Notes: generated by a model not told the origin, from the letters alone. Shown: positions 44,905-49,076, counted from the stretch's first letter. The stretch is 55,589 nt of DNA from Chitinophaga pinensis (GCA_945885475.1 CAMCYR010000021.1:1-55589); one strand, 5' to 3'. Numbers and translations: made by a program.

Positions 44905-46083
44905 ATGGCAACAGATAGATTTGAAGCTCATGACTATTATTTGATGGATGAGTTATTAACCGATGAACATAAATTGATTCGTGAAACAGCTCGTGCATGG
45001 GTAAAGAAAGAGGTTTCACCAATAGTAGAAGATGCATGTCAGAATGTAACATTTCCAAAACAATGGATTAAAGGATTAGCAGAAATTGGTGCATTCGGAC
45101 CCTATATCCCTACAAAATACGGTGGAGCCGGATTGGATCAGATTTCTTATGGTTTGATCATGCAGGAGCTGGAGCGAGGCGATAGCGGCTTGCGTTCAAC
45201 TGCTTCTGTTCAAAGTTCCTTAGTGATGTATCCGATCTATACCTATGGAACAGAAGAACAACGAATGAAATATTTGCCAAAACTTGCGAGTGGCGAAATG
45301 ATGGGATGTTTTGGACTTACAGAGCCTGATCACGGTTCAAATCCTTCTGGAATGATCACTAATATCAAAGATATGGGCGATCATTACCTATTAAATGGGG
45401 CTAAAATGTGGATCTCAAACTCTCCTTTTGCTGATATTGCTGTAGTTTGGGCAAAAGATGAAGCAGGTGATATCCGTGGAATTGTTGTAGAAAGAGGAAT
45501 GGAGGGTTTTACAACTCCTGAAACGCACGGAAAATGGAGCTTGCGTGCAAGTGCTACCGGTGAATTGGTTTTTGCGAATGTGAAGGTGCCAAAAGAAAAT
45601 ATTTTCCCAACGGTCAAAGGATTGAAAGGGCCACTGGGTTGTTTGAATTCAGCTCGTTTTGGAATTGCTTGGGGTGCTATAGGAGCAGCAATGGATTGCT
45701 ACGACTCTGCTTTGCGTTATTCTAAAGAGCGTATCCAGTTTGGTAAGCCGATTGGTGCGTTTCAGCTAACTCAGAAAAAATTGGCTGAAATGATTACAGA
45801 GATCACCAAAGCACAATTATTGACTTGGAGATTAGGTGTTTTGAAAAACGAAAATAGAGCAACGCCTGCACAAATTTCAATGAGTAAACGAAACAATGTA
45901 AATATGGCTTTACAGATTGCACGTGAAGCACGTCAGATACATGGTGGAATGGGAATTACCGGTGAATACCCGATCATGCGTCACATGATGAATTTAGAAT
46001 CAGTGATCACCTACGAAGGAACCCATGATATCCATTTGTTGATTACAGGTATGGATGTTACCGGTTTTAATGCTTTCGGATAA
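44905..46083 (+). CDS. Acyl-CoA dehydrogenase, glutaryl-CoA dehydrogenase-like
   Basis: The 392-residue flavoprotein has the normal acyl-CoA dehydrogenase domains. The catalytic Glu371 is in TYEGTHDIHLLI, as in glutaryl-CoA dehydrogenase, and the block RGDSGLRSTASVQSSLVM (about 91-108) holds the Arg that binds the second carboxylate in that enzyme. FAD contacts include GCFGLTEPDHGSNPSG and WISNSPFADI. This supports glutaryl-CoA dehydrogenase, a step in lysine and tryptophan breakdown, but a general acyl-CoA dehydrogenase remains possible. It stands alone between its own promoter and a terminator. Confidence 0.85.
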   Translation: MATDRFEAHDYYLMDELLTDEHKLIRETARAWVKKEVSPIVEDACQNVTFPKQWIKGLAEIGAFGPYIPTKYGGAGLDQISYGLIMQELERGDSGLRSTASVQSSLVMYPIYTYGTEEQRMKYLPKLASGEMMGCFGLTEPDHGSNPSGMITNIKDMGDHYLLNGAKMWISNSPFADIAVVWAKDEAGDIRGIVVERGMEGFTTPETHGKWSLRASATGELVFANVKVPKENIFPTVKGLKGPLGCLNSARFGIAWGAIGAAMDCYDSALRYSKERIQFGKPIGAFQLTQKKLAEMITEITKAQLLTWRLGVLKNENRATPAQISMSKRNNVNMALQIAREARQIHGGMGITGEYPIMRHMMNLESVITYEGTHDIHLLITGMDVTGFNAFG

Positions 46084-46105
46084 AAAAGCACCTATTTTAT
46101 TTTCA

Positions 46106-46136
46106 GCCCCGATACTAATCCTATCGGGGCTTTTTT
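46106..46136 (+). terminator. Rho-independent terminator after the acyl-CoA dehydrogenase gene
   Basis: GCCCCGATA (46106-46114) and TATCGGGGC (46122-46130) are perfect complements around seven bases, followed by TTTTTT. Confidence 0.93.
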
Positions 46137-46344: not shown

Positions 46345-47145
46345 ATGGAGTATTTAGGCTTTTTGGCTGCTGTATTAATTGGAATCTTGTTGGGCTTAAT
46401 CGGTGCCGGAGGTTCTATTCTCACGATACCTGTTTTGGTTTATTTGATAGGAATACAACCCGTTCAAGCTACTTCTTACTCTTTATTTATTGTTGGAGTA
46501 TCCGCTTTTATTGGTGGTCTGCGTTATCTGAAAAATAATATGATCTGCATAAAAACCATGATGGTGTTTGGATTGCCTTCAGTTGTCAGCATCTTCTTCA
46601 CAAGAAAATATTTGTTGCACATGATTCCCGATCATTTGTTTTATCTGGGTTCTGTTGAGATTACAAAAAGTGCGGCACTCATGATCTTACTGGCAGTGAT
46701 GATGATTCTAGCGTCTTATTCGATGATAAAAAAAACATCAACATTCACACAAGATCCTCACAAACATAACAATCAGCCGTATCGTTATTTTCTGATATCC
46801 CAGCAAGGTGTTTTGCTTGGTATTTTAGTTGGTTTGGTGGGTGCAGGAGGAGGATTTTTGATTATTCCTGCGTTGGTTGTTTTGGCTAAGTTGCCAATGA
46901 AAATGGCAGTCGGAACCTCACTTGCTATCATTGCGATGAACTCATCTATTGGTTTTTTAAGCGATTTTGGTAGACATAATTTTGATTGGAAATTTTTATT
47001 GATATTTTCTTCTTTCGCTATCAGCGGAATTATAATCGGTAGTTATTTGTCTAAATTTATAAGTAGCTTGAAACTGAAGCCTGTATTTGGCTGGTTTATT
47101 TTAGTAATGGGGTTTTATATTATCAGTAAAGAAATTTTTCTGTAA
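46345..47145 (+). CDS. TauE/SafE family sulfite/organosulfur exporter-like protein
   Basis: The 266-residue protein has about eight membrane helices and the family repeat at the start of each half: IGILLGLIGAGGSILTIPVLV (about 11-31) and LGILVGLVGAGGGFLIIPALV (about 155-175). This family moves sulfite or related anions across the inner membrane. In sulfur-handling operons such as staphylococcal cst, a tauE gene sits with a persulfide dioxygenase gene; here the CstB-like gene follows 60 bases later. That neighbour supports a sulfur role, but the transported ion is inferred. Confidence 0.85.
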   Translation: MEYLGFLAAVLIGILLGLIGAGGSILTIPVLVYLIGIQPVQATSYSLFIVGVSAFIGGLRYLKNNMICIKTMMVFGLPSVVSIFFTRKYLLHMIPDHLFYLGSVEITKSAALMILLAVMMILASYSMIKKTSTFTQDPHKHNNQPYRYFLISQQGVLLGILVGLVGAGGGFLIIPALVVLAKLPMKMAVGTSLAIIAMNSSIGFLSDFGRHNFDWKFLLIFSSFAISGIIIGSYLSKFISSLKLKPVFGWFILVMGFYIISKEIFL

Positions 47146-47163
47146 AAACTGAAAATAATCATT

Positions 47164-47191
47164 TTGATAAAAATTGATTAACTTATCTTTG
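47164..47191 (+). promoter_or_regulatory. Bacteroidota-type promoter for the CstB-like gene
   Basis: TTG at 47164-47166 and TATCTTTG at 47184-47191 are 17 bases apart, within the known range. The ATG at 47205 follows 13 bases after the box, so the leader is short. Confidence 0.65.
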
Positions 47192-47204
47192 TAAAAAAAA
47201 CAAT

Positions 47205-48593
47205 ATGTATATAGAACAATTATACACGGGTTGCTTAGCAGAAGCAGCTTATTATATCGAATCAGAAGGTGAAGCTGCAATAATTGATCCTTTAAGAGAA
47301 ACATCTCCTTACATTGAATTGGCAGCAAAAAGAAATGCCAAAATAAAATATGTTTTCGAAACACATTTTCATGCTGATTTTGTATCCGGACATATAGATC
47401 TTGCCCGGAAAACAGGCTCATCTATTGTTTTTGGCCCTACCGCCCAAACAGGATACGATGTAATTGTGGCGAAAGATGATGAAGTGTTTTCAATTGGTAA
47501 AATCAAACTGAAAGTATTGCATACCCCCGGACATACATTGGAGTCCTCTTGCTTCTTGTTAATCGATGAGAACGGGAACAACAATGCTGTTTTTACGGGT
47601 GATACCTTATTTGTCGGTGATGTTGGCCGCCCCGATCTTGCCATCAAAAGTGATCTGACAATCGATGATCTTGCGGGAATGTTATTCGACTCTCTGAATT
47701 CTAAAATTAAACCTCTTGCCGATGATGTAATTGTGTATCCCGCTCATGGTGCCGGTTCTTCCTGTGGAAAAAATATTGGTAAAGAAACCTTTTCTACCAT
47801 TGGTACTCAGAAAAAATTAAATTATGCGATGCAGCCAATGAATAAGCTTGACTTCATTAAAGCGGTAACGGATGGATTATCTTCTGCTCCAGGTTATTTT
47901 GCTATGGATGCTAAACTTAATAAAGAAGGATACGACAGCATTGATGATGTTTTGAAAAAGAACACCAAAGCTTTAACTGTTACTGAATTCGAAACAGAAA
48001 TGGCAAAAGGTGCTCTGGTTCTTGATGTTCGCTCAGCGGATGATTTTGAAAAGGGATTTGTTCCTAAGGCGATAAATATTGGTTTAAACGGACAATATGC
48101 ACCATGGGTTGGAATGCTTATTGATGGGAATGTACCCTTGATTTTGGTTGCAGAGGATGGAAAGGAAGCGGAAGCTGTTTTGCGTCTTGCCCGTGTTGGA
48201 TATGAAAAAGTAAATGGTTATTTGAAAGGTGGTATCTCTGCCTGGAAAAATGAAGGGAAAAAAATCGAGACAATTGAAAGTGTTACTGCGGAAGATTTTG
48301 TTGCTAAAATTGATCCCTCAAGCAATATTTTAGATGTCAGAAAATTGGGTGAAGTGGAAAGTGGGATAGTTGAAAATGCACAACATATGTGCTTATCAAA
48401 ATTACAAACGGAATTAAATTCTTTGGATAAAAATAAGCATTATTTTGTACATTGTGCCGGTGGATACCGATCTATGATGGCGGCTTCTATCTTGAAACAA
48501 AAAGGATTTACAAAAATTACGAATGTCCTCGGAGGTATGGGGAAAATTAGTGCGACTGGCATAAAACTTGTGCAACCGGCTCTGACTTTTTAA
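47205..48593 (+). CDS. CstB-like persulfide dioxygenase fused to two rhodanese domains
   Basis: The 462-residue protein has a metallo-beta-lactamase domain (about 1-245) and two rhodanese domains (about 265-360 and 368-455). The metal site is of the ETHE1/CstB type: THFHADFVSGH (53-63), HTPGHTLES, GDTLFVGDVGRPDL and YPAHGAGSSCG. The first rhodanese has no active-site Cys (ILVAEDGKEAE), so it is a pseudo-domain; the second has Cys417 in HCAGGYRS. This is the architecture of staphylococcal CstB, which oxidises persulfides and makes thiosulfate. Cytosolic; it needs iron and oxygen. Neighbours TauE/SafE and a periplasmic rhodanese fit a sulfide/persulfide removal role. Confidence 0.9.
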   Translation: MYIEQLYTGCLAEAAYYIESEGEAAIIDPLRETSPYIELAAKRNAKIKYVFETHFHADFVSGHIDLARKTGSSIVFGPTAQTGYDVIVAKDDEVFSIGKIKLKVLHTPGHTLESSCFLLIDENGNNNAVFTGDTLFVGDVGRPDLAIKSDLTIDDLAGMLFDSLNSKIKPLADDVIVYPAHGAGSSCGKNIGKETFSTIGTQKKLNYAMQPMNKLDFIKAVTDGLSSAPGYFAMDAKLNKEGYDSIDDVLKKNTKALTVTEFETEMAKGALVLDVRSADDFEKGFVPKAINIGLNGQYAPWVGMLIDGNVPLILVAEDGKEAEAVLRLARVGYEKVNGYLKGGISAWKNEGKKIETIESVTAEDFVAKIDPSSNILDVRKLGEVESGIVENAQHMCLSKLQTELNSLDKNKHYFVHCAGGYRSMMAASILKQKGFTKITNVLGGMGKISATGIKLVQPALTF

Positions 48594-48612
48594 TTAATCT
48601 AAAAAAATTCTC

Positions 48613-49014
48613 ATGAAAAAATTGATCTTTTTATTTTTTGCAATTATCGCAACAAGCAATGTTGCAGATGCTCAATCGAATAGTACTGTTGTTACGAATC
48701 TTTCTACCGAACGATTTAAAGTAATTATTGAAAATGATAAAAATGCTTCTATCATTGATTTGCGAACAACGGATGAAATAACTAAAAAAGGGTATATCAA
48801 AGGTGCAATTCAACTTGACTTTTTGGCAAAGGATGCTGAGAAGCAAGTTGACAAATTGGATAAAAACAAAACCTATTATATTTATTGCGCAGGTGGCGGA
48901 AGAAGTGGTGATTGTGCTGAGTATATGGAAAAAAATGGCTTTAAAAGAGTCTATAATCTTGAAAAAGGAATTTCAGATTGGTTGTTGAAGGGATTTCCTG
49001 TAGAGAAGAAATAA
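48613..49014 (+). CDS. Exported single-domain rhodanese
   Basis: The 133-residue protein has a signal peptide (MKKLIFLFFAIIATSNVADAQ) and one rhodanese domain with active Cys92 in YCAGGGRSGDC (91-101). It would transfer sulfane sulfur in the periplasm, and a second Cys (Cys101) in the loop is unusual. It starts 20 bases after the CstB-like gene and shares its transcript, giving a cytosolic and a periplasmic sulfurtransferase together. It ends before a terminator at 49043-49076. Confidence 0.88.
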   Translation: MKKLIFLFFAIIATSNVADAQSNSTVVTNLSTERFKVIIENDKNASIIDLRTTDEITKKGYIKGAIQLDFLAKDAEKQVDKLDKNKTYYIYCAGGGRSGDCAEYMEKNGFKRVYNLEKGISDWLLKGFPVEKK

Positions 49015-49042
49015 TTATTTTTGATGACTCTTCATACTTTAG

Positions 49043-49076
49043 ACTCCTCTGTTTTATAAAGCAGAGGAGTTTTTTA
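49043..49076 (+). terminator. Rho-independent terminator after the rhodanese gene
   Basis: ACTCCTCTG (49043-49051) and CAGAGGAGT (49062-49070) are complementary arms with a 10-base loop, followed by a run of T to 49075. Confidence 0.9.

Follow-up and report, generated by a model that had tools for sequence, protein, structure and literature searches.

A TauE-CstB-rhodanese locus predicted to clear persulfides in Bacteroidota, with exchangeable transporters beside CstB and a putative Crp/Fnr-type promoter in its relatives

CstB enzymes have been studied mainly in Firmicutes. CstB turns two persulfides into thiosulfate (PMC9774590), and the cst operon of Staphylococcus aureus (tauE, cstR, cstA, cstB, sqr), in which tauE is co-regulated, yields thiosulfate from sulfide; in a cstR mutant the expression of tauE, cstA, cstB, and sqr goes up (PMC5480029). 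In the yrkE-yrkJ cluster of B. licheniformis, a predicted persulfide dioxygenase, YrkH, is likewise found with a TauE-like protein, YrkJ (PMC9918477). Bacteroidota carry many CstB enzymes as well, and all the named relatives that we fetched of the CstB described herein are from that phylum.

The locus lies in a DNA stretch of 55,589 nucleotides (the window), which is contig C21 of a 3.06-Mb genome that is 99% complete (labelled G000). Three genes stand in tandem on the plus strand, encoding a TauE/SafE-family transporter, a CstB-type protein, and a rhodanese with a predicted signal peptide (Table 1). The intergenic gaps are 59 bp (TauE-CstB) and 19 bp (CstB-rhodanese), and two terminator-like hairpins flank the unit. 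This three-gene module had been proposed from a reading of the sequence alone; every ORF was confirmed with the same boundaries, and the Pfam domains match. As in the S. aureus operon, TauE is nearby and the host is predicted to make bacillithiol. In contrast to that operon, CstA is not adjacent, neither CstR nor SQR was found in the genome, TauE is directly 5' of CstB on the same strand, a secreted rhodanese is located 3', and a Crp/Fnr-type promoter architecture appears in place of the CsoR-type repressor gene. The yrkE-yrkJ cluster differs from the window by its CstR-like YrkD, TusA/DsrE-type carriers, and SQR. The acyl-CoA dehydrogenase gene that precedes the unit (glutaryl-CoA dehydrogenase-like, window 44905-46083) is mostly 92-98% identical across the genomes of the family and adjoins this locus in many of them; in two, only the rhodanese comes after it.

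Table 1. Features of the locus in the window, and YeiH-type genes found beside CstB in related genomes
Feature	Coordinates	Strand	Evidence or remark
Terminator-like hairpin, upstream boundary of the unit, 3' of the acyl-CoA dehydrogenase gene	46105..46131	+	10-bp stem, 6 GC pairs, T tail
Membrane transporter of the TauE/SafE family, 266 aa, presumed to export sulfite/thiosulfate	46345..47145	+	Pfam PF01925, E=1.4e-40
Putative Crp/Fnr-type operator TGAAAATAATCA, degenerate, one half-site off	47150..47161	+	34 bp (start to start) 5' of the -7 box
-7 box TATCTTTG, Bacteroidota TAnnTTTG type, inside the TauE-CstB spacer	47184..47191	+	Consensus from PMC9723704
CstB-type multidomain persulfide dioxygenase-sulfurtransferase (predicted), 462 aa	47205..48593	+	phmmer, AF2, Foldseek
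Metal motif H54-F-H56-A-D58-F59	47364..47381	+	Invariant in 42 Bacteroidota homologues; common to 3R2U and 3TP9
Cys187, which aligns with the Cys conserved in the MBL domain of S. aureus CstB (HGAGSxCGK)	47763..47765	+	Invariant
First rhodanese fold, residues 259-350, pseudo-rhodanese without Cys	47979..48254	+	PF00581 stretch, Cys list
Second rhodanese domain, active-site loop C417-AGGYR422	48288..48551	+	PF00581 stretch; C417 and R422 invariant
Secreted single-domain rhodanese, 133 aa, predicted signal peptide (~residues 1-21), loop C92-AGGGR97	48613..49014	+	PF00581, E=2.9e-17
Terminator-like hairpin, downstream end of the unit	49041..49072	+	14-bp stem, T tail
PF03601 YeiH-type transporter, divergent beside TauE-less CstB	L142:2792-3784		
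PF03601 YeiH-type transporter, divergent beside TauE-less CstB	L143:7099-8043		
PF03601 YeiH-type transporter, divergent beside TauE-less CstB	L144:2513-3466		
PF03601 YeiH-type transporter, divergent beside TauE-less CstB	L145:6488-7432		
PF03601 YeiH-type transporter, divergent beside TauE-less CstB	L133:3417-4349		
PF03601 YeiH-type transporter, divergent beside TauE-less CstB	L224:243-1337		

The identity of the 462-aa protein was established by sequence, residue, and fold comparisons. Pfam recognizes in it a Lactamase_B domain and two Rhodanese stretches, and phmmer aligned the whole protein collinearly over three domains with 3TP9, the beta-lactamase and rhodanese domain protein of Alicyclobacillus acidocaldarius (E=9.9e-66), and with 3R2U of S. 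aureus COL (E=3.1e-61). The former, which is ~32% identical to our protein and for which we know of no tested function, is the best full-length match in fold as well as in sequence: with the AlphaFold2 model (pLDDT 92) as the query, Foldseek ranked it at the top (TM 0.91), followed by 3R2U and then by a Burkholderia PDO-rhodanese fusion and ETHE1. The order of metallo-beta-lactamase (MBL), pseudo-rhodanese, and rhodanese domains is that of CstB according to Pfam, the 3R2U alignment, and Foldseek. Shared with S. aureus CstB are the three-domain architecture, the Cys of the MBL domain, a dead first rhodanese, and an active last rhodanese. Cysteines are found only at positions 10, 116, 187, 396, and 417, leaving the first rhodanese fold with none. 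Besides C187 and C417, we read in the protein H54, H56, D58-F59, H110, D133, and H181, which would form the predicted mononuclear iron site (His-x-His-x-Asp-Phe plus distal His and Asp). In an alignment including 3R2U, 3TP9, a staphylococcal plasmid CstB, and others, H54, D58, F59, H110, D133, H181, C187, C417, and R422 are invariant, and the same nine residues plus H56 are invariant across 42 Bacteroidota homologues.

A glyoxalase II-type hydrolase carrying appended rhodanese domains, for which a weak NCBIfam GSH_gloB match might speak, is extremely improbable. That match reaches 75.7 bits, far under the cut-off of 200.8; Phe59 occupies the position of the glyoxalase II His that ligates the second metal; and the closest sequences and folds are CstB-type, then PDO and ETHE1, with glyoxalase II ranking far below the CstB-type structures, the PDO fusion, and ETHE1 in Foldseek. 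The glyoxalase II identity was rejected on these grounds, and by sequence, metal-site residues, and fold the protein is CstB-type. The sequence-only reading had reached the same assignment, and it is borne out by the metal motifs, Cys417, the Cys-free first rhodanese, and the collinearity with 3R2U and 3TP9. That reading would have been refuted by an alignment placing the protein with glyoxalase II rather than with CstB/ETHE1; it withstands this test, since sequence, residues, and fold all match CstB-type proteins ahead of glyoxalase II.

As a whole, the unit is best explained, and we think with good probability, as a bacillithiol-linked system for the detoxification of persulfides and sulfane sulfur. 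If its catalysis follows that of the CstB family, the cytoplasmic enzyme would take low-molecular-weight persulfides, the mononuclear-iron MBL domain would oxidize the sulfane sulfur to sulfite, and the Cys417 rhodanese domain would combine this sulfite with a second sulfane sulfur to give thiosulfate. TauE would then send out the sulfite or thiosulfate, a YeiH-type transporter filling its place in sister species, while the secreted rhodanese may use sulfane sulfur or thiosulfate on the periplasmic side. The likeliest substrate would be bacillithiol persulfide, coming from cysteine metabolism or from environmental polysulfide, because BshC is present in the genome (E=2.8e-110) and bacillithiol synthesis has been predicted or shown in Bacteroidetes (PMC6282198).

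The lack of a regulator or SQR gene, noted earlier for the window, holds for the 99%-complete genome in its entirety, to the extent that it can be searched, as does the missing upstream sulfide step. CsoR/CstR (PF02583) gave no match in this genome, while the positive control genomes did. A Priestia SQR-like query matched nothing in it, yet found relatives in two genomes of the family (G001 and G024). There were 22 matches to PF07992, and the main candidates, read by eye, were Lpd, TrxB, and other flavoproteins, with no SQR among them.

The TauE-CstB core is ordinary and widespread in Bacteroidota, and not new, since in 35 of the 79 Bacteroidota loci, including those of Spirosoma, Larkinella, Dyadobacter, and several Flavobacteriaceae, TauE is the gene immediately 5' of CstB. 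In these loci, as in those of Pontibacter, the order TauE>CstB is that of the window and CstB is ~55-63% identical to it; unlike the window, they often have Crp/Fnr or YeeE/YedE neighbors and no secreted rhodanese. YeeE/YedE-type genes are nearby in 20 of the 79 loci and Crp/Fnr-type genes in 10. On annotated plasmids of Pontibacter akesuensis and Spirosoma linguale, Crp/Fnr, TauE, and CstB genes are found together with YeeE/YedE, an SLC26 transporter adjoins CstB on an annotated plasmid of Persicobacter, and a sulfite oxidase is near CstB on one of Pontibacter sp. G13. A Winogradskyella MAG (L035) carries CstB twice, in divergent clusters; TauE, an SQR-like gene, and a gene of the Crp/Fnr type accompany one of the copies. 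Within the family of the window, a search for the gene order TauE-CstB-rhodanese, as the sequence-only reading had suggested, found it kept in 14 genomes. With both the pair and the trio conserved, the arrangement is far beyond chance.

Among the 25 family genomes having this CstB locus, TauE adjoins CstB on the same strand in 17, counting G001 and G024, in which a YeeE/YedE gene sits between the two. A divergent PF03601 (YeiH-type) gene is beside CstB in seven (five confirmed by Pfam and two by similarity), one has neither transporter, and none of the 25 has both. The YeiH type is commonly annotated as a putative sulfate exporter, and the exchange of two unrelated transporter families at one position suggests that they share a role beside CstB. 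It supports an exporter role for TauE, against which stands the wide variety of substrates in the TauE family; export of the product is the likeliest job of the CstB-adjacent transporter, for which we infer the direction of transport. No report of this exchange was found in a limited literature search.

Were TauE to import a sulfur anion, with thiosulfate giving up sulfane sulfur to the rhodanese domains and the dioxygenase acting on this flow, the locus would serve sulfur assimilation or thiosulfate use, a role reportedly proposed for the Burkholderia PDO-rhodanese fusion. We regard this as quite unlikely, given that the domain order is CstB-like and not PRF-like, that the partners in the swap are YeiH-type putative exporters, and that one annotated neighbor is a sulfite oxidase. 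It would, on the other hand, agree with the reversibility, in principle, of rhodaneses and with the YeeE/YedE genes (sulfur transport family PF04143) mentioned above, both those in 20 of the 79 loci and those that separate TauE from CstB in G001 and G024.

The detoxification reading leaves the place of the third gene to be considered. The 133-aa rhodanese starts with MKKLIFLFFAIIATSNVADAQ, which is signal-peptide-like and has no lipobox Cys, and its orthologues in the family (59-90% identity) keep the signal-like start and the Cys-x4-Arg loop. They occur in 28 of the 36 family genomes, linked to CstB in 15 and unlinked in 13, and in four of the 15 a small cytosolic rhodanese gene intervenes. 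In G018 and G019 the secreted rhodanese is right after the same acyl-CoA dehydrogenase, CstB and TauE being absent between them. These data do not favor the earlier proposal that the rhodanese replaces cstA and sqr as a dedicated periplasmic arm. A single trans-envelope pathway in which it is required, substituting for CstA and SQR, would account for the tandem order with its 19-bp gap and common terminator, for the 14 genomes with the same order, and for a composite promoter common to CstB and the unlinked rhodanese in three genomes. Such a pathway is nevertheless unlikely, as the gene is unlinked in 13 of the 28 genomes, stands beside the dehydrogenase gene with no CstB in G018 and G019, and is missing from most Bacteroidota TauE-CstB loci. 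Because of the unlinked copies and the G018/G019 arrangement, the secreted rhodanese is better seen as a periplasmic enzyme of the whole family that in one lineage has its gene at this locus, and not as an obligate partner. It may still share the CstB regulon, since unlinked copies carry the Crp/Fnr-type composite promoter that is also present at CstB.

E. coli PspE, a periplasmic thiosulfate sulfurtransferase (PMC10215317), is likewise a small secreted rhodanese. It matches the 133-aa protein weakly in sequence and has a different genomic setting, and the NCBIfam PspE score of 26.8 bits is below the cut-off of 102, so that by this cut-off the protein is not PspE. Some relatives have a separate rhodanese cluster (L244:783-4916 in G031, L245:876-3302 in G035, and L246:481-3368 in G001) in which a Crp/Fnr protein of ~210 aa is joined by small ORFs resembling membrane proteins and by tandem single-domain rhodaneses, with a thioredoxin in two of the three and a lipoprotein-like rhodanese in two of the three. 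No cluster of this kind was seen in the genome of the window.

In the TauE-CstB spacer, the -7 box TATCTTTG is placed 21 bp 5' of the cstB start codon; most close relatives have an equivalent TAnnTTTG box 20-31 bp 5' of the ATG. Transcription of cstB and the rhodanese would start, at least partly, at this promoter. Promoters of the sigma-70 type (TTGACA/TATAAT), which is not the type of this phylum, were no commoner than in shuffled sequences. The palindrome TGAY-N4-RTCA stood 5' of CstB at 21 of the 77 loci, whereas among 724 other ORFs in those loci it preceded 20 (p=1.8e-12, which is optimistic because the sequences are related). Several of these 20 background sites belong to TauE genes of the same operons; directly upstream of TauE, matches to the operator are rare. 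Neither N3 nor N5 spacer variants of the palindrome nor a strict TTGAT-N4-ATCAA site (E. coli FNR) was found upstream of CstB. When a TAnnTTTG box came 12-70 bp after the palindrome, the spacing between the two was 34-36 bp in 10 of the 15 pairs. Since the Bacteroidota -7 box is located at -12 to -5 (PMC9723704), the palindrome is thus centered near -41. The window has in this register TGAAAATAATCA, its sole loose composite site (0.03 expected), whose operator role we infer from the intact copies in relatives. Crp/Fnr proteins acting as class II activators classically bind around -41, and in many relatives the spacer promoter has a Crp/Fnr-type site there, which is degenerate in the genome of the window.

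The full composite, TGAY-N4-RTCA-N22-24-TAnnTTTG, occurs several to dozens of times (up to 34) per genome in most of the 36 family genomes, and the reversed control gave almost no matches in them. For this reason it is a real but general Crp/Fnr-type promoter, which alone does not mean sulfur control. Both CstB and the unlinked rhodanese have it in G012, G032, and G034, a pattern that points to a common regulon, though the three genomes appear closely related; the composite is also present at the unlinked rhodanese in G020 and at CstB in G021. A limited literature search found nothing on the combination of the palindrome with TAnnTTTG, and no report of a Crp/Fnr-type CstB promoter architecture. 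To our knowledge, few Crp/Fnr-type regulons have been mapped in Bacteroidota, and the palindrome ~35 bp before TAnnTTTG could help to predict them genome-wide.

Control of the unit, described earlier as unexplained, is thereby explained in part: the CstB genes of relatives have the Crp/Fnr-type composite promoter, whereas the window has a degenerate copy only and its genome has no recognizable Crp/Fnr HTH. A receiver-cNMP-Crp fusion was the single HTH_Crp_2 protein detected in G012 and in G034. In the genome of the window no Crp/Fnr HTH scored above the cut-off, and for this reason Crp/Fnr-type control may be decaying there; an undetected regulator is also possible, since five exact composite sites persist elsewhere in the genome. 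We propose, tentatively and with some doubt, that a Crp/Fnr-superfamily class II activator, rather than the sulfur sensors of the CstR, SqrR/BigR, or FisR type that are known elsewhere, controls CstB and partly the secreted rhodanese in Bacteroidota, and that the lineage of the window has lost this regulator and is losing the operator, so that the unit would be constitutive or otherwise controlled. Together, the enzyme, the TauE/YeiH-type interchange, and a likely Crp/Fnr-type switch offer a testable picture of sulfane-sulfur clearance without CstR and, in this genome, without SQR.

One weak HTH_Crp_2 match in the same genome, on contig C15, was rejected as a Crp/Fnr protein because it has the look of AbiEi and adjoins an AbiEii-type nucleotidyltransferase. 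By eye, this pair of an AbiEii-like nucleotidyltransferase and an HTH protein (L154:365-2106) resembles a type IV toxin-antitoxin system.
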